Both the position numbers and the translations under genes were made by a program. 38,579 bases of DNA from a virus. The stretch covers positions 1 through 38,579 of the IMG/VR virus record IMGVR_UViG_3300044621_001223. One strand, 5' to 3'. The notes under the pieces were generated by a model that saw nothing but the letters and a program-made list of their open reading frames with translations, was not told the origin of the DNA and did no database searches. Below are positions 686-31,422 of this stretch, piece by piece (position 1 is the first letter of the stretch; each line of letters starts with the position of its first letter).

Positions 686-3522
686 TCACCCAGAGCAGGA
701 TCTTGTGGCTCCCCAATGGGGCAGAGGATCGTCACGTTTCGTGGGATGACGTGTCTCCCTCCAGCGCCAGGAACCCGTCTGGCGTTCGCATTGACAGCGA
801 CACTGCACTCCAGAGCACAGTCGTGCTCGCCTGCGCTAGAGTCTTGGCAGAATCGCTCGCCGCGCTTCCGCTGCATCTCTACGAGTATCTCCCTGGCGGC
901 GGAAAGGCTCCAGCAAAGGAGCATCCTCTGTATCGCAGGCTCCATGTCTCACCGAACTCGTGGCAGACTGCCTTCGAGTGGAGGGAGCAGCAGGTTCTCT
1001 GGCTGGCTCTTTGGGGAAACGCATACAACCTTCTAGTCCCTGGTGCTGCGGGCTTCGCGACCGAACTATGGCCTCTGCACCCGAGCCGCATGAAGCCAGA
1101 GCGTATCGAGAACGGACGCATCAGGTACAAGTACCGGGACGAGAATGGTCGCGAAGAAACTTACACTCAAGACCAGATCATGCACATTCGCTGGCTGTCT
1201 GATGACGGCCTCGAAGGAATGGTTCCTGTCGAACTCGCTCGCGACGCGATTGGGCTTGCTCGCGCGTGCGAGATTCACGGAGCACGGTTCTTCGGGAACG
1301 GAGCCCGCCCAGGTTTCGTGCTGACCACCGACAACGACATGAAGCCAGAGGCGGCTTCAATGCTTCGCGATAACTGGGAGCGGATGCACAGAGGCCCGGA
1401 TCGCTCGAATCGAACCGCCGTTCTGTTCGGCGGCCTGAAGCCGCACGAACTCGGGAGTGCGAGCAATCAGGAGTCCCAGTTTCTTGAAACCAGAAGGTTT
1501 CAGATCGAAGAGGTCTGCCGCCTCTATCGTGTTCCTCCTCACCTAGTCGGCGACCTCACGCGTTCTTCGTTCTCGAACATCGAACAGCAGAGCATCGACT
1601 TCGTTCAGCACACTCTGCTCCCGTGGTGTCGTCGCTTCGAGAACGCGTTCGCTAGAGACTTGATCGTCGAGGACGACAAGTATTTTGCAGAGTTCGACAC
1701 TCGCGGACTGCTTCGCGGCGATGCGGCTGCGAGGGCTTCTTACTACTCGTCGATGTACAACCTCGGCGTCGCAAGCATCAACGAGATCCGCTCTTGGGAG
1801 AACCTGAACCCAATCGAAGGCGGCGACCTGCGGTTCGTTCAGTTGAACATGCAGACGCTCGATCAGGCGAACGTCACCGCGACGGCTACGAAGGAGCCAG
1901 AGGCCGAGCCTCAAGTCGAAGAGCAGCCGACCGCAGCAGTCGGCGATCTAGTGGCCCTCGTGGAACAGATCGGCTCCGGTGCGATCACGCCAGATGCCGC
2001 GAAGGCTGCGTTCGCTTCTGTGTTCCCGCAGATGCCAGAGTCTGTCGCAGCCGCGATCATCGAGGGTGCGATCAAAAAGCCGGAGCCTGAGCCGACTGTT
2101 ACGGAACCGATGCCGGAAAAAAATCCGGCAGAGGTTGCGGAACAGCCTGCTCCTGCCCCGGCTGGGAGGTCCCTTTGGCAAGGTTCGCTTCGTGACTCCG
2201 AAGGCCGAAGCCTGACGATCAGCATCGACTTTGACCGCACGTTTGCGGCCGACCCAGAACTCATGGGCGACTTCGCCGCGAAGGCGAAGGCCGATGGCAA
2301 CACGGTCGTAATGATTACGCGGCGGGCTGATACGCCCGAAGACCGCGATTTCATTGAGCAGACGCTTGGCTCCTACGCCGATGCCTTTGATTCCGTGATT
2401 CTGGCTGGCCCAGATACGCAGAAGGAATCCGCCGCGAAGCAGGCTGGCATCAGCGTCGATATCTGGATCGACGACAGCCCGCAGACGATCAAGGAGATTC
2501 GCGGCTTCTGCCCGACCGGCCCCGGCGGCGGGATTGATAACTCTTGCGGCAAGGAAGGCGGCGGCGGCTCGGTCGCGGCAGTCGGAGACACGCTGAAGCG
2601 AAAGGACGTTCAGGTCGGCCAGACGATCTCGGTTCAGAAGCACGGCCAGCAGAAAGTCCACAACGGAGTTGTCACGGGAGTCAAGCATGAGGCCGCAGTC
2701 TCTGAGATCACGCTGAAAGACGCAGACGGCAACGAGACAACGATCCGAATCAGGAATCTCGCACAGATTCGTGAGGCTAACCTCGGCGACTCAGGGAAGA
2801 TAAGAGAGCCATCTGAAAAGAAAGGGCCGAATCCTGGCAAGACCAAGACAATTCAGGAGGTCCCGGAGAAGCCGACCGGAGGAAGCAAGAAAGAACGCGA
2901 ACGCTTCCGGCAGGAAGTGAAGGATTTCTGTGCATCTCATGGAGTTAGCGTCGAAGACTCGTTCTCTGTAGGCAGGCAAGGCTCAACAATCGACTCGCTT
3001 CATGAGGTCGCCGTTGGAGTGAACAGGCTCGTGAAGAGCGGCCAGGAGCCGCCTCCAGTAATCGTCATGACTAGGCCACAGAAAGGCCACATGGGATACT
3101 TCAGTCCGCATCGCCCGGACGCAATCTTCGTGAACGCGAGGCTGCCTGCCGGAGAACCGCAGGGTTCCATCAACAACGGGTTTCTTGCCGGAACCGGCAG
3201 TTCAGGAAGAGGGACTATCATCGTTCACGAAAACGCACACCGACTGCATCAGGCCGCTGTCGGGGAACAAGAGTTCAGGAGGTTCCCTCGGATTCAGCCT
3301 CGCGGCGGAACCACTCTTTCGTTCAGGGACCACCAGGTCGCAGGCCAGGTAAGCAGGTACGCGCAGACCTGCGAAGTCGAGTTCGTTGCCGAAACGTATT
3401 CAGGTCACGTTGCTGGCAGGAGATACAGCGACGATGTATATACTCTGTACAACCGACTCGGCGGCCCGAGGCTCCGAGAGGTCAAGTTCACGAAGAGCGG
3501 CAAGGTCAAGGTCAAAAACTAA
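682..3522 (+). CDS. Portal protein fused to HAD-like phosphatase and HExxH metallopeptidase domains
   Basis: Residues 1 to about 400 look like an HK97-family portal, the dodecameric ring through which DNA enters the head (for example SSFSNIEQQSIDFV near residue 295). A Pro/Glu-rich linker follows. A HAD-like domain at about 508-605 has DFDRTF (Asp516, Asp518), VMITRR, the Lys of KESAAK and WIDDSP (Asp597, Asp598), which is the full set of HAD phosphatase motifs. Next is a Gly-rich linker, CPTGPGGGIDNSC (from about 610), then a small beta-rich segment. A zincin-like C-terminal domain has IVHENAHRLHQ (His849, Glu850, His853) and a downstream EVEFVAE that could give the third ligand. At 946 residues it is about twice the usual portal length. 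The portal call is firm; the fused activities are inferred from motifs. Confidence 0.88.
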   Translation: MITQSRILWLPNGAEDRHVSWDDVSPSSARNPSGVRIDSDTALQSTVVLACARVLAESLAALPLHLYEYLPGGGKAPAKEHPLYRRLHVSPNSWQTAFEWREQQVLWLALWGNAYNLLVPGAAGFATELWPLHPSRMKPERIENGRIRYKYRDENGREETYTQDQIMHIRWLSDDGLEGMVPVELARDAIGLARACEIHGARFFGNGARPGFVLTTDNDMKPEAASMLRDNWERMHRGPDRSNRTAVLFGGLKPHELGSASNQESQFLETRRFQIEEVCRLYRVPPHLVGDLTRSSFSNIEQQSIDFVQHTLLPWCRRFENAFARDLIVEDDKYFAEFDTRGLLRGDAAARASYYSSMYNLGVASINEIRSWENLNPIEGGDLRFVQLNMQTLDQANVTATATKEPEAEPQVEEQPTAAVGDLVALVEQIGSGAITPDAAKAAFASVFPQMPESVAAAIIEGAIKKPEPEPTVTEPMPEKNPAEVAEQPAPAPAGRSLWQGSLRDSEGRSLTISIDFDRTFAADPELMGDFAAKAKADGNTVVMITRRADTPEDRDFIEQTLGSYADAFDSVILAGPDTQKESAAKQAGISVDIWIDDSPQTIKEIRGFCPTGPGGGIDNSCGKEGGGGSVAAVGDTLKRKDVQVGQTISVQKHGQQKVHNGVVTGVKHEAAVSEITLKDADGNETTIRIRNLAQIREANLGDSGKIREPSEKKGPNPGKTKTIQEVPEKPTGGSKKERERFRQEVKDFCASHGVSVEDSFSVGRQGSTIDSLHEVAVGVNRLVKSGQEPPPVIVMTRPQKGHMGYFSPHRPDAIFVNARLPAGEPQGSINNGFLAGTGSSGRGTIIVHENAHRLHQAAVGEQEFRRFPRIQPRGGTTLSFRDHQVAGQVSRYAQTCEVEFVAETYSGHVAGRRYSDDVYTLYNRLGGPRLREVKFTKSGKVKVKN

Positions 3523-20825: not shown

Positions 20826-21071
20826 ATGGTCGCAACGACTGAGGCTTACTTCAATGCAACGTCTGCCGCAAAAGAACTCGGCTGCTCAAGAAGCAGCGTG
20901 TGTCGAGCGGCAAAGAACTACGGCATCGGGATCTTCACGAACGGCAGGCTGGCAGTCCTGAGTAAGCAGGACGTCGCGTCAATCAAGAACCATATCCATG
21001 AGACTTCCGGCAATCCGCTGTGGATCGCGGCCAGAGGGCGAAAACACAAGAAGGGCCGGAAAAAGAAATAA
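20826..21071 (+). CDS. Small helix-turn-helix DNA-binding protein
   Basis: An 81-aa protein: residues 10-30 (NATSAAKELGCSRSSVCRAAK) form an excisionase/MerR-like helix-turn-helix. A turn with NGRLAVLSKQD follows, and the C-terminal tail is very basic (ARGRKHKKGRKKK). It could repress or activate a nearby promoter, such as the one at 21418. No integrase is in the window, so an excisionase role is not supported. It starts after AAGGAAAAAAC. Confidence 0.72.
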   Translation: MVATTEAYFNATSAAKELGCSRSSVCRAAKNYGIGIFTNGRLAVLSKQDVASIKNHIHETSGNPLWIAARGRKHKKGRKKK

Positions 21072-21316: not shown

Positions 21317-21417
21317 CATCGCTGCCGTCAGGTTGCCCGGCCCCCTATAAATAGCCTAGACGCCGGCGGGGGGCGGGGCGGCCGTTTTATCCCGGCTTGC
21401 TCCCGGCCTAAAGACTA

Positions 21418-21445
21418 TTGCACCAAATGGCCGATATGCTAATAT
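21418..21445 (+). promoter_or_regulatory. Promoter of leader cassette 1 (AAA+ operon)
   Basis: CTATTGCACC contains the -35 box TTGCAC (21418-21423). TAATAT at 21440-21445 follows after 16 bases. The same ATTGCAC or ATTGCCC start occurs at the promoters at 25233 and 27265. The DNA before it (21317-21417) is very GC-rich with a stray TATAAATAG, and I see no gene there. Confidence 0.6.
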
Positions 21446-21454
21446 GTAGTGTGT

Positions 21455-21502
21455 CGGCTGGGCGTCCAGCCGGGTTCAGTTCGGTCAGTTCAGCAAAGGA
21501 CA
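21455..21502 (+). promoter_or_regulatory. 5' leader element 1: hairpin, GGTTCaGTTCGGT, CAAAGGACA
   Basis: CGGCTGG and CCAGCCG pair around a GCGT loop (21455-21472), close to the predicted transcript start. GGTTCAGTTCGGT and the ribosome-binding block CAAAGGACA (21494-21502) follow, 6 bases before ATG 21508. The same order is seen at 25265 and 31393. Confidence 0.65.
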
Positions 21503-21507
21503 TACCA

Positions 21508-22785
21508 ATGGCAGTTCAGGGAATCATGATGGTCGCCGGTCGTCGCTACATCACGGTCACGGGTCGTGGGTTCACGCTGATCCGTCGCTTCAAGAAGCAG
21601 GGTGCGAAGACTCGGCTCGTGCAGATGGGCGAGATCAAGTGGGACAACGACGAGCAGACGTTCGAGATCACGCGTCGCATGTTCAACAAGATGGTGACGC
21701 GGGTCGCGACGCCTGGTCAGGACGATGTGAAGCCAGACGTCGCTGACACGACACCCGATGTCGCTCCGGCGACTCCGGTTCCGTCGCTGAACAGCGATCT
21801 CGCTCAGGCGATCGCTGCGGCTGTCGCTCCTCACGTTCGTGCTGGCATCGACCGCGATCAGATTGAAGCCATCGTCGATGCTCGCATCGTCGATAGCCTG
21901 CTCCCTCGTCGAATCGAGGTCGTTGTGCCTGGGACCGGCGACATGAAGGATGTCGGCGTCCAGCACACTTACTTCGAAGCGATCCGGCGTCTGGCGATCC
22001 AGAGGCTAAACATCTGGCTCAACGGACCTGCCGGCGGCGGCAAGACCACGATCGCGGCGTCCATCGCCGACTCGCTCGGCCTTCCGCACTACGCACAGAG
22101 CGTCTGTGCGTTGACGAGCAAGGCCGACCTGATCGGCTACAAGAACGTGACAGACGGTAATTACGTCGCGACCGACCTGCGGAAGGCGTACGAAGAGGGC
22201 GGCGTGTTCCTGCTCGACGAGTGCGATGCTGGCAACGCGAACGTGATGGTCATCATGAACGCTCTGCTGGCGAACGGTCGGTGTGCATTCCCCGACGGGA
22301 TGGTGGACAAGCATCCCGACTTCATCATGATCGCCGGAGCAAATACCGTCGGGCTCGGTGCCGATAAGCAGTACGTCGGTCGCAATCAGTTGGACAAGGC
22401 GACGCTCGACAGGTTCGTGATGCTGGAGTTCCCGTACGATCCCACGATCGAGGCTTGCATGGCCGGAGTCAGCCCGTCGTGCTTCGCCGAAGCCGACCGG
22501 CCCGAGCCGATCGAGTTCATCCAGGTCGATGACAAGGCCGACTCCGAGAACGACGCTCGGCTGAAGTCTGCCGCCGAAGTTCGGTGTGCTGAGTTCTGCC
22601 GCCGCATCGTTCGGATTCGCAAGGCGATGGACGAACTGAAGGTGCGTCACATCGTCAGCCCTCGTGCCACGAAGGCTGGATGCACGATGATCCGGCTCGG
22701 CTTCACGATGGCCGACACGATGAAGATGGCGGTCTGGAAGGGGCTGGACGCCGACACGGTGTCCAAGGTTGAGAGCCGGATCTGA
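21508..22785 (+). CDS. MoxR/CbbQ-like AAA+ ATPase
   Basis: A 425-aa protein. The ATG at 21508 has CAAAGGACA just upstream. Residues 1-60 form a small basic beta-rich domain, 70-100 a Pro/Asp-rich linker and 165-330 the AAA+ module with Walker A GPAGGGKTT (173-181), Walker B GGVFLLDECD (231-240), sensor Asn in GANT (279) and LDRFVMLEF after it. Such MoxR-family ATPases act as chaperones that load metals or remodel partners, usually with a VWA-domain protein encoded next door. The downstream gene has a VWA-like segment, in line with that rule. The C-terminal 110 residues are helical. The target is unknown. Confidence 0.85.
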   Translation: MAVQGIMMVAGRRYITVTGRGFTLIRRFKKQGAKTRLVQMGEIKWDNDEQTFEITRRMFNKMVTRVATPGQDDVKPDVADTTPDVAPATPVPSLNSDLAQAIAAAVAPHVRAGIDRDQIEAIVDARIVDSLLPRRIEVVVPGTGDMKDVGVQHTYFEAIRRLAIQRLNIWLNGPAGGGKTTIAASIADSLGLPHYAQSVCALTSKADLIGYKNVTDGNYVATDLRKAYEEGGVFLLDECDAGNANVMVIMNALLANGRCAFPDGMVDKHPDFIMIAGANTVGLGADKQYVGRNQLDKATLDRFVMLEFPYDPTIEACMAGVSPSCFAEADRPEPIEFIQVDDKADSENDARLKSAAEVRCAEFCRRIVRIRKAMDELKVRHIVSPRATKAGCTMIRLGFTMADTMKMAVWKGLDADTVSKVESRI

Positions 22786-24423: not shown

Positions 24424-24434
24424 TTCATTCACCT

Positions 24435-24466
24435 GCCCCCGTGCAGCATCTTCGCTGCACGGGGGC
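24435..24466 (+). terminator. Perfect 13-bp hairpin without U-run
   Basis: GCCCCCGTGCAGC (24435-24447), loop ATCTTC, GCTGCACGGGGGC (24454-24466). It lacks a following T-run, so termination would need help; it may instead shield or process the mRNA before the next gene's GAGAGGAC site. Confidence 0.6.
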
Positions 24467-24530
24467 CGAACCAGAGAGGACGTTCCAATGAGTTTCGCAC
24501 CTACACTTTTCAGCATGGAGGGCTTCGACG

Positions 24531-24740: not shown

Positions 24741-25252
24741 GCGAGCGAGTCACGCTCCGCAAGGGAGACATCTTCCGTGCGAAGGGTGGCCCGTACTACG
24801 AAGGCAGTGCCGGGCAGAAGGTGAAGATGGCCGAGCGAGGCCCGTTCCGGTTCTCTGCTTACTGCGAGCAGGGAGAGCAGAAGTGGATCGAGGCGTATTC
24901 GGTTCGCGAGGGAGGATTTACAATCCTCAGCCTCACGGAACGAGACAGCCTTCTTCCGGGCTCCTACGTCACGAGGCCGTATCGCATCTGCGGTCGCGTG
25001 ACAGGGAAGCCTCTCGCTCGCATCGAAGGGCGTCGCCACAAGAAGGGGAAGAAGAAGTTCGTGATCGACGCGGCTGATGTCGCGGCCGTGAGCGACGAGG
25101 CTCCCCCGATGGCGGCGATGGGCAAGCCTGACAAGGCCGGCAGACGTGAGGCCCGGAAGGCGGCGGCATCACGCCGGGCCGCAGGGGGCCGCAGGGCCGC
25201 AATCCAGGCGGTCCTCGCGGGTTTGTCACCTATTGCACCGGCCGGGCAATAG
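24737..25252 (+). CDS. Basic protein with beta-rich N-domain and repeat-derived C-tail (171 aa)
   Basis: The GTG at 24737 overlaps the previous stop. Residues 1-100 read as a small beta domain (TLRKGDIFRAKGGPYYEGSAG, FTILSLTERDSLLPGSYVTRPYRICG). From 100 on it is basic and Ala-rich (RRHKKGKKKF, KAAASRRAAGGRRAAIQA). The last part is encoded by a GGGCCGCAGG-type repeat (25173-25202), so the tail may have been extended by repeat growth. Nucleic acid contact is plausible. No family was recognised. Confidence 0.6.
   Translation: MSERVTLRKGDIFRAKGGPYYEGSAGQKVKMAERGPFRFSAYCEQGEQKWIEAYSVREGGFTILSLTERDSLLPGSYVTRPYRICGRVTGKPLARIEGRRHKKGKKKFVIDAADVAAVSDEAPPMAAMGKPDKAGRREARKAAASRRAAGGRRAAIQAVLAGLSPIAPAGQ
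25173..25202 (+). repeat. Short GGGCCGCAGG-type repeat
   Basis: GGGCCGCAGGG, GGCCGCAGGG and CCGCAA follow each other within the 3' end of the gene ending at 25252. The same unit forms the much longer tract at 27341-27520. Confidence 0.7.
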
Positions 25253-25261
25253 GTGTATGAT
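25233..25261 (+). promoter_or_regulatory. Promoter of leader cassette 2
   Basis: CCTATTGCACC gives -35 TTGCAC (25233-25238). TATGAT at 25256-25261 follows after exactly 17 bases. It overlaps the stop region of the preceding gene. The box pair is nearly identical to that at 27265. Confidence 0.7.
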
Positions 25262-25264
25262 GAA

Positions 25265-25324
25265 GGGGTCGCCGGGGCGTTCCCGGCGACCCCTGGTTCG
25301 GTTCGGTTGAAAAGCAAAGGACAC
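25265..25324 (+). promoter_or_regulatory. 5' leader element 2: hairpin, GGTTCgGTTCGGT, CAAAGGACAC
   Basis: A perfect 12-bp stem GGGGTCGCCGGG / CCCGGCGACCCC with loop GCGTT (25265-25293) starts about 4 bases after the -10 box, so the mRNA should begin with it. GGTTCGGTTCGGTT and CAAAGGACAC (25315-25324) follow, 4 bases before ATG 25329. It has the same layout as the leader at 21455. Confidence 0.7.
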
Positions 25325-25328
25325 GACA

Positions 25329-25631
25329 ATGGCAAACGCAATCAATCCCGTCTCCGGCATCCGGTTCATGGATCAGGACGACCTCATGTCGTTCAGTGGT
25401 GCCGAGGAGTTCGCGTTCGGCGGTCAGCCGCCGGTCATCTATGAAAACAGCGACCGACTCATCGTCGCCGGTCGCAACGGAGTCGAGGTCATGTTCGGCG
25501 ACCATGAATGCGATCACTACGTTCTGGCTCGCGAGCAGATGACGATGTGCGAGGCGATCGCAGTCATCGAGATGATTTCGCATGCGAGTCGCATCGCCAT
25601 GAAGGCTGTCGGCTTCACGATCGGTCGTTGA
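25329..25631 (+). CDS. Unknown protein driven by leader cassette 2 (100 aa)
   Basis: The first gene of a short series of small genes. It has an acidic N-terminal half (GIRFMDQDDLMSFSGAEEFAFGG), a beta-like middle (NGVEVMFGDHECDHYVLA) and a helical end (MCEAIAVIEMISHASRIAMKAVG). There are two Cys. No membrane or catalytic motif. Strong promoter, stable 5' hairpin and good ribosome-binding site imply high early expression. Function unknown. Confidence 0.65.
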   Translation: MANAINPVSGIRFMDQDDLMSFSGAEEFAFGGQPPVIYENSDRLIVAGRNGVEVMFGDHECDHYVLAREQMTMCEAIAVIEMISHASRIAMKAVGFTIGR

Positions 25632-25670: not shown

Positions 25671-25907
25671 ATGGCTACGCGAGCGACACGTCGGTTCTTC
25701 AGCGATCGCAAGAAGCAGGCGAAGGTTCGCCAGAAGTTTCACGAGCGGATGTCTTCGCTGAAGGGTCACGCCGCGATGGACTACGCGTTCCTGCTTCGGG
25801 CGCAGTCATTCGTGAAGCGTAACGGGCTTGAGGACAACAGGAACGTGATGCTGGCACTCGCCGAACTCACGTCCGAGACGATGGACATCATTCGGAAGCA
25901 GTCGTAG
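25671..25907 (+). CDS. Small basic helical protein (78 aa)
   Basis: The N-terminus is very basic (MATRATRRFFSDRKKQAKVRQKF) and the rest helical (MDYAFLLRAQSFVKRNGLED, LALAELTSETMDIIRKQ). The start has CAAAGGACAC (25655-25664), as in four neighbouring genes. Likely DNA- or RNA-contacting by charge; family not recognised. Confidence 0.6.
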   Translation: MATRATRRFFSDRKKQAKVRQKFHERMSSLKGHAAMDYAFLLRAQSFVKRNGLEDNRNVMLALAELTSETMDIIRKQS

Positions 25908-27220: not shown

Positions 27221-27264
27221 GTATCCGCGATCGCGCTCGCTGGAAAAAAATCACGCGAGCCCTA

Positions 27265-27293
27265 TTGCCCGTGCCGTGCAGTAGGCGTATGAT
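27265..27293 (+). promoter_or_regulatory. Promoter with start codon at the predicted transcript start
   Basis: CCTATTGCCC gives TTGCCC (27265-27270). TATGAT at 27288-27293 follows after 17 bases. The ATG at 27301 lies 7 bases beyond the -10 box, so the mRNA would have almost no leader. It is nearly the same promoter as at 25233 but without the hairpin element. Confidence 0.7.
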
Positions 27294-27300
27294 GTGAGCC

Positions 27301-27663
27301 ATGAGCATGAACGCCGCAAGCCGCCGCACTAACCCCCGCAAGGGGGGCCGCAAGGCCGGGGCCGCAGGGGGCCGCAGGGCCGCAGGGGGGCAGGGGCAGG
27401 GCCGGGGCAAAAAGGGGCAGGGGCAGGGCCGCAGGGGGCCGCAGGGGGCAGGGCCGCAGGGCCGGGGCCGCAGGGCCGGGGCCGCAGGGCCGGGGCAGGG
27501 CCGGGGCCGCAGGGCCGCAGTGACCATGACAACGGCAGAGCGCGACGCCATCGCCGCTGCGTATCAATGGTTCGTCGTGAATCGCGAGTGCGAGCAGGCG
27601 AGCATCCTATACAGGCTTCTGGTTCGTTCGTTCGGTGAGCCTCGTTCAATGAAAGAAAACTGA
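27301..27663 (+). CDS. Protein with G-rich-repeat-encoded N-terminus and small helical core (120 aa)
   Basis: Residues 1-74 are a low-complexity Gly/Arg/Gln/Ala stretch (KGGRKAGAAGGRRAAGGQGQG and so on) encoded by the G-rich repeat tract. Residues 76-120 (MTTAERDAIAAAYQWFVVNRE, ASILYRLLVRSFGE) form a normal-looking small helical protein that could start at ATG 27526. The upstream promoter at 27265 fits the ATG at 27301. Either the tract is translated as a basic disordered arm or it is a repeat insertion and the core starts at 27526. The stop overlaps the next gene (TGATG). Confidence 0.5.
   Translation: MSMNAASRRTNPRKGGRKAGAAGGRRAAGGQGQGRGKKGQGQGRRGPQGAGPQGRGRRAGAAGPGQGRGRRAAVTMTTAERDAIAAAYQWFVVNRECEQASILYRLLVRSFGEPRSMKEN
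27341..27520 (+). repeat. G-rich degenerate repeat tract (GGGCCGCAGG / GGGGCAGGG units)
   Basis: About 180 bp built from permuted GGGCCGCAGG, GGGGCAGGG and GGCCGGGG units. Several runs meet the four-G-run quadruplex pattern, for example 27385-27407. It stays open in the reading frame from 27301. A short copy is at 25173-25202. Confidence 0.85.
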
Positions 27664-30873: not shown

Positions 30874-31019
30874 GGGAAGCGAACGAGAAGTTGATTGGAA
30901 GAACTACGCCTGGGATGAAGAGTCGGGCTGGCTCTGTGCATGAGAGACGCGGGCGAAAACTTATTCGTCCGGTAAAGCAAGAAGTTTTCATGGAGGACGG
31001 CGACGATGAACCTGAATGA
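30750..31019 (+). CDS. Small Cys-rich zinc-binding protein (89 aa)
   Basis: Cys5-x2-Cys8, Cys13, Cys20-x2-Cys23 and Cys30 in the first 30 residues (ICEICGGREC, RICGQCDAKRTEC) form a probable zinc ribbon. A charged helix (EERLRKELREANEKL) and a basic region (RRGRKLIRPVKQ) with acidic end follow. Possibly a nucleic-acid contact factor near the helicase and primase genes. Its start is within the preceding frame; the stop overlaps the next gene by 14 bases. Confidence 0.6.
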   Translation: MAKICEICGGRECVDPWRICGQCDAKRTECIRSEERLRKELREANEKLIGRTTPGMKSRAGSVHERRGRKLIRPVKQEVFMEDGDDEPE

Positions 31020-31422
31020 AATACTTGACGCTGTGGTCAAGAAGCAAGCAGAGTGCGACGAGTTGGAGATGAGGATGAAGAAACTCGACGATCAGCGAAA
31101 GCAACTTGAAGATCTCGCGGCGGAGGCACTTGCGGCAAGCGGCCTCGACCGTGTAACGTATGCGGGCCGCTCGTGGCGGGTTGAAGTGGCTTCATACCTA
31201 AGTGTGCCAAAGGACAACCGCGACGCCGTGCTCCAGGCGGCATATAACGAAGGCATCGCGGACGAACTGACTACGGTCAATACCGCGACACTAAAGTCGT
31301 GGCTCATCGAGCGGAAGAAAGAGCAGGGGCAGGATGTCTCTGGCAAACTCGCAGAAGGCACTGCGTTCGACGGGCTCGTCAGTGAGTATTCACAGATCCG
31401 GCTGCGTAGCCGGTCTGTGTGA
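31006..31422 (+). CDS. Coiled-coil protein with C-terminal DNA-type domain (138 aa)
   Basis: The start has GGAGG (30992-30996). Residues 5-45 are coiled coil (ILDAVVKKQAECDELEMRMKKLDDQRKQLEDLAAEAL). The rest reads RVTYAGRSWRVEVA, then DNRDAVLQAAYNEGIADELTTVNTATLKSWLIE and a closing SQIRLRSRSV, a pattern common in phage replication clusters. No named family recognised; its gene neighbours suggest a DNA metabolism role. The gene's 3' end contains the hairpin of leader element 3. Confidence 0.6.
   Translation: MNLNEILDAVVKKQAECDELEMRMKKLDDQRKQLEDLAAEALAASGLDRVTYAGRSWRVEVASYLSVPKDNRDAVLQAAYNEGIADELTTVNTATLKSWLIERKKEQGQDVSGKLAEGTAFDGLVSEYSQIRLRSRSV

Follow-up and report, generated by a model that had tools for sequence, protein, structure and literature searches.

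Among bacterial mRNAs, the protective stem-loops of the ompA type lie at the extreme 5' end, with few unpaired bases ahead of them and the SD sequence free downstream; RppH of B. subtilis requires at least 2 unpaired 5' nucleotides (reviewed in PMC3997798). The SAS and ESAS of cluster K mycobacteriophages are repeated, start-linked elements with inverted repeats and a subcluster-specific consensus in the non-structural half of the genome; the SAS spans 13 bp at the start codon, and departures among the ESAS repeats do not, according to the authors, support RNA pairing (PMC3203893). HK022 has a pair of put RNAs close to its early promoters, each a structured nascent RNA of ~70 nt with two stem-loops, putR lying ~270 nt from its start (PMC9378689). 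The loading elements of Q, AlpA, and GafZ lie between the -35 and -10 boxes, that of GafZ as a near-perfect palindrome, and the proteins are large enough to include a nozzle segment, with AlpA and Q also needing a -10-like pause sequence (PMC9371919, PMC11150451). Finally, the translational operator of T4 gene 43 is a conserved-loop hairpin upstream of a phage start codon that reaches the ribosome-binding site and serves autoregulation of a single gene, and between T4 and RB69 the gp43 hairpins differ in stem but not in loop (PMC3014915).

The element described here comes from the whole of one IMG/VR virus record, 38,579 bases long with 58.6% GC (the window), and it resembles each of these systems in part. 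Its hairpin sits at the predicted 5' end like those of the ompA type, but it is reused at several phage operons, is tied to an operator-bearing promoter, and has a conserved loop, and its role in stability is a predicted one. In contrast to the SAS, the hairpin lies just after the -10 box and its pairing is backed by covariation; reading the leaders of 58 cassettes and the gene starts of the window revealed no copy of the 13-bp GGGATAGGAGCCC at a start codon. As with put there are usually two copies per genome, yet each has one hairpin of ~20 nt at +1, followed by an unstructured linker. The dyad of the promoter spacer, a candidate binding site, lies between -35 and -10 in all lineages as do the Q, AlpA, and GafZ elements, whereas the protein encoded nearby has 81 aa and an N-terminal winged helix rather than a nozzle and a C-terminal HTH. 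Unlike the gene 43 operator, the hairpin precedes several unrelated genes and leaves the SD free. The AlpA/GafZ promoter-spacer elements and the put RNAs are the nearest working models, neither of which matches in full. We favour, with a probability of roughly 0.55, a repressible promoter module whose mRNAs would carry a 5'-terminal protective stem-loop. The features of the window, all on the plus strand, are as follows.

20826..21071, +, gene for an 81-aa winged-helix protein (excisionase/MerR-type), candidate regulator of the cassettes
21415-21510, +, cassette 1, a genuine copy related to cassette 2
21415..21436, +, operator dyad of cassette 1 in the promoter spacer (CTATTG..CGATA), containing the -35 box TTGCAC at 21418-21423
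21440..21445, +, -10 box TAATAT of cassette 1, transcript start predicted at ~21452
21454..21473, +, leader hairpin of cassette 1, 8-bp stem and GCGT loop
21474..21507, +, linker of cassette 1 (GTTCAGTTCGGT..) and SD GCAAAGGA, ahead of the ATG at 21508
21508..22785, +, AAA+ (AAA_5) gene under cassette 1
25227-25331, +, cassette 2, a genuine copy related to cassette 1
25227..25255, +, operator of cassette 2, perfect inverted repeat CACCTATTGC-N9-GCAATAGGTG, containing the -35 box TTGCAC at 25233-25238
25256..25261, +, -10 box TATGAT of cassette 2, transcript start predicted at ~25268
25265..25293, +, leader hairpin of cassette 2, 12-bp stem and GCGTT loop
25295..25328, +, linker of cassette 2 (GGTTCGGTTCGGTT..) and SD GCAAAGGA, ahead of the ATG at 25329
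25329..25631, +, small gene of unknown function under cassette 2
27262..27293, +, third operator-promoter (CCTATTGC..GCAGTAGG, -10 TATGAT), lacking the cap hairpin
31391..31419, +, hairpin once taken for a third copy but not a member, inside the coding 3' end of the ORF at 31006-31422

The original prediction held that a cassette of promoter, hairpin, shared leader motif, and GCAA(A)GGA was used at least three times, at 21418, 25233, and 31387. At the first two sites the order was borne out: a -10 box, then a hairpin close to where the transcript is predicted to start, followed by a GGTTC(A/G)G-type stretch and finally the SD. The hairpins, TCGGCTGG-GCGT-CCAGCCGG and GGGGTCGCCGGG-GCGTT-CCCGGCGACCCC, have RNA fold z scores of -2.4 and -3.6 against shuffled RNA, and the pattern CTATTGCACC-N6..9-CRATA occurs at exactly two sites of the window, 21415 and 25230, where shuffles expect 0.00. 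A consensus promoter scan of the window picked up neither site, so the promoter call there rests on the relatives. An intrinsic terminator was ruled out for the leader hairpin, which has no T tract and sits between promoter and start codon. The motif said to be shared by the leaders stood only in part, as site 1 reads GGTTCAGTTCGGT and exact copies of the 8-mer GGTTCGGT are confined to 25295, 25300, and 31429. GGTTCGGT was rejected as a defining motif, variants of it being frequent in coding sequence and its leader copies being limited to one subclade (the window, with near variants in L010 and L109); it belongs to that subclade and not to the whole element. GCAA(A)GGA, read earlier as part of the cassette, is an ordinary SD: CACAAAGGACAC also precedes the cassette-free genes at 25671 and 25944, and GCAAAGGA was likewise dropped as a special signal.

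The site at 31387, which was to place the putative SSB gene in the same regulatory class, does not belong. Its hairpin is part of the last codons of the ORF at 31006-31422 (..IRLRSRSV, then stop), has a fold z score of -1.65, and lies downstream of no CTATTG dyad; the consensus scan found no promoter there either, a weak point given that the same scan misses sites 1 and 2. The third copy was dropped on comparison with 15 relatives of the SSB gene, most of which are missing the hairpin; where it persists, in L010 and partly in L015, it encodes the same RLRSR/RLRGR peptide. The original prediction had overlooked the dyad between -35 and -10, the adjoining winged-helix gene, and the promoter at 27262, whose leader would be short or absent if the ATG at 27301 is the start. 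Behind this operator-promoter, at 27345-27520 and ahead of a pyrimidine-dimer glycosylase gene, lies a T-free, G-rich array (GGGCCGCAGGGCCGGGGCCGCAG..) that is also seen at ~6220-6470 of L010; a short piece of it is found upstream of cassette 2 as well.

Relatives were gathered by searches with the SSB, HTH, and AAA+ proteins and by two pattern scans of IMG/VR, which together yielded a clade of uncultured phages, mostly as fragmentary records. For the AAA+ protein, a single-protein search was empty and an alignment search retrieved the relatives. In the phage collection, nucleotide searches with window positions 15000-38579, or for known phage relatives, gave zero matches, as did a search with the HTH protein. 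A mismatch-tolerant pattern, curated by hand with 12 matches discarded as chance hits or duplicates, gave 58 cassettes from 25 virus records. A Planctomycetota MAG contig (L189, VGYP01000148.1) encodes an SSB-like protein with 82% identity, which could be a clue to the host; a homolog was absent from the other 293 Planctomycetota genomes searched, and the contig may therefore be a binned virus contig.

Across the relatives the element comprises a sigma70-type promoter (a TTGAC-like -35 box, a spacer of 16-17 bp, and a TATAAT-like -10 box), a spacer dyad of the form CCTATTG-N10..12-C[GA]ATAGG, a hairpin, an unstructured linker, an SD, and a start codon. CCTATTG overlaps the -35 box and CGATAGG directly precedes the -10 box; in many relatives the -35 box is itself preceded by an A/T-rich tract, which the window lacks. 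The dyad pattern matched 50 sites in 21 of 23 whole records, and a reversed control pattern matched 0. Two copies per genome are usual, with four or more in G304 and G314. In G312 both copies carry the same shortened dyad (CTATTGACAGCCGATAA), with a spacing of N5 as opposed to N10-12 elsewhere, and such a concerted change fits a DNA-bound regulator. Operator-promoters without a hairpin form a minority (27262, one at 3444 of L017, and two in L196), and in G301 the regulator gene is present but a recognisable cassette was not found. On the minus strand of L019, at 2029-3423, four operator-promoters of the same CCCTATTGAC..CGATAGGG type have A-rich leaders and no hairpin.

The winged-helix gene accompanies the element closely. 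Of 23 records, 22 have a member of its family (A1/A5) ahead of the first cassette, and in 19 of 19 records the ~80-aa gene ends 46-560 bp before the first exact operator, on the same strand. The protein encoded at 20826 gave weak matches to excisionase-family and HTH entries in sequence libraries, and its structural model is a winged helix of moderate confidence (pLDDT 73), N-terminal and followed by a short basic tail. A fold search with this model returned the RacA, MerR-type, and BldC DNA-binding domains as best matches, none at E <= 0.001. From the position of its gene, the protein most likely is the binder of the dyad. A second excisionase-like HTH gene is often found directly upstream of the winged-helix gene (L004 2754-3125, L191, and others).

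The hairpin is fixed in position. In 55 of the 58 curated cassettes the first pairing of the folded transcript falls at +1 to +5 of the predicted start, and fold energy is strongest where the transcript begins and almost vanishes along the linker and start region. Cassette hairpins are stronger than those of 244 other gene leaders of the same loci, but ~40% of the latter reach the same score and hairpin strength alone proves little; similarly, single hairpins reach p <= 0.05 against shuffles in only 38 of 58 cases, so that it is position and covariation that carry the argument. Each of the 7 stem pairs shows double (compensatory) changes across 26 distinct hexaloop hairpins, in 25 cells where shuffles give 7.2, a count that, as the sequences are related, is not a probability; slid controls collapse. 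Stems differ among copies within one genome and still pair, as in G304 (CGCGG, GTCGGGG, and CCGGGG types), G313, G314, and the window. As the stems vary but pair, the loop is asymmetric and invariably in the transcribed orientation, and G-U pairs are present, the sequences argue for an RNA structure rather than a DNA palindrome. A search of IMG/VR with the commonest hairpin and no promoter condition found a comparable promoter ahead of 21 of 21 sites among the matches listed. A hexaloop covariance model run over 250 kb returned, above ~23 bits, nearly all training cassettes and few sites elsewhere (L202:4214, near 15 kb in L004 and L006, and an antisense site in L014 and L196), and Rfam release 15 gave nothing at or above the gathering score in the window and seven relatives. 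Covariance and further copies in relatives had been named beforehand as the check; its outcome was positive and strongly supports a promoter-hairpin-leader cassette reused within one phage.

Copies in one genome mostly have the same loop; from lineage to lineage the loop differs. In the main clade it is CGGACA, with the variants CAGACA, AGGACA, CGGACC, and CGGACG; in the window, L010, and L109 it is of GCGT type, with GGTTC(A/G)GTT or something close to it behind; and L017 has a pair of its own. More distant phages identified through AAA+ (L112-L116, L120, and L121) carry an unrelated palindrome before the -10 box (e.g. CGCGACGTCGCG) and other hairpins, which start at +1 or +2 in 7 of 7 cases. 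The recurring trait is layout, rather than sequence.

We propose that the cassette acts as a transcription-plus-leader module at the head of early-region operons. The small winged-helix protein encoded just upstream most likely would bind the spacer dyad and, as the dyad overlaps -35 and abuts -10, the bound protein should block polymerase, resulting in coordinated repression or timing; two to five operons per genome would thereby be switched together, probably by repression. The stem-loop at the transcript start would leave ~0-4 unpaired 5' bases, followed by the unstructured, SD-bearing linker, and would most likely protect the 5' end against pyrophosphohydrolase and 5'-end-dependent RNases while the SD is kept free. 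Given the RppH requirement for unpaired 5' nucleotides, such a cap hairpin should slow 5'-end-dependent decay with the SD open. Comparison itself shows the architecture to be conserved, the hairpin to keep its place relative to -10, the pairing to be compensatory, and the regulator gene to be linked; we infer where transcripts start, that the regulator binds and represses, and that the hairpin stabilises the mRNA. Against this reading stand the hairpin-less operator-promoters, the G301 regulator gene with no recognisable cassette, a dyad spacing whose variability is unusual for one rigid dimer, and the conservation of CGGACA and its variants on differing stems, which mere 5' protection does not need and which makes a loop-binding factor, for antitermination or translational control, a live alternative. 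That the loop is particular to each lineage may point to a trans-acting binder in addition.

Chance is hardly credible as an explanation: GC-rich leaders do form hairpins regardless, as the many other leaders with equal scores and site 3 itself illustrate, but for sites 1 and 2 it is contradicted by the covariation, the fixed position, the recurrence in two lineages, and the promoter linkage recovered by the operator-free search. That the leader repeat is a second DNA operator with no RNA structure is also very improbable; promoter-adjacent, GC-rich perfect inverted repeats often are operators, but the stems that differ and still pair, the oriented loop, and the G-U pairs already contradict this. 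The hairpin could instead be the site of a translational regulator, in the manner of gene 43 autoregulation or of a CsrA-like protein recognising GGA in a loop, which would place the operons under post-transcriptional control. Most hexaloops contain GGA, and loop retention on changing stems has its precedent in T4 and RB69, yet an unstructured linker sets the hairpin well back from the SD, the GCGT loop of the window lineage has no GGA, and unrelated first genes share the hairpin, all of which make this account quite unlikely.

An unlikely account, though a less remote one, is that the hairpin is recognised by a trans-acting factor or by RNA polymerase itself for processive antitermination, along the lines of nut in lambda or put in HK022, with a factor resembling Q, AlpA, or GafZ possibly loaded at the spacer dyad. 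It would explain a loop kept on different stems, alike within genomes and different between lineages, and agrees with the few copies at operon heads, the two put RNAs of HK022, and the location of the dyad. However, the 81-aa candidate has no room for the nozzle domain of Q or AlpA, inspection of 58 leaders by eye showed no conserved -10-like pause sequence early in the transcript, the cassette has one hairpin where put has two, and read-through of an internal terminator is here a conjecture. Similarly doubtful is a new control system in which a spacer-bound winged-helix factor and a loop-specific 5' hairpin jointly affect RNA polymerase or the fate of the mRNA, and in which operator, hairpin, and factor have co-evolved from one phage lineage to the next.

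Under the favoured repressible module with a protective stem-loop, a compact unit would control several operons per phage in more than 20 uncultured virus records, and it would allow a direct test of 5'-end protection versus loop recognition in phage mRNA. The hairpin also represents a covariation-backed RNA element missing from Rfam, and the cassette motif marks operon starts in otherwise unannotated phages.

Other sequence features were also noted. A near-identical CTATTGTCAATGGGTGAACGATAGGGTATAATAATCTCTTCACTTGACC stretch in L020, L022, L024, L026, L028, and similar contigs was probably picked up by the pattern from another family, coding or unrelated. At 24434-24468 of the window, before the gene at 24488, a perfect GC-rich intergenic hairpin with no T tract is followed by CCGAACC. 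GATTGTTCGG occurs ~2 to 5 times per locus in L004, L006-L009, L011, and L014, mostly at a TGA stop or directly behind it; in many instances a GC-rich intergenic hairpin comes next, with an SD.
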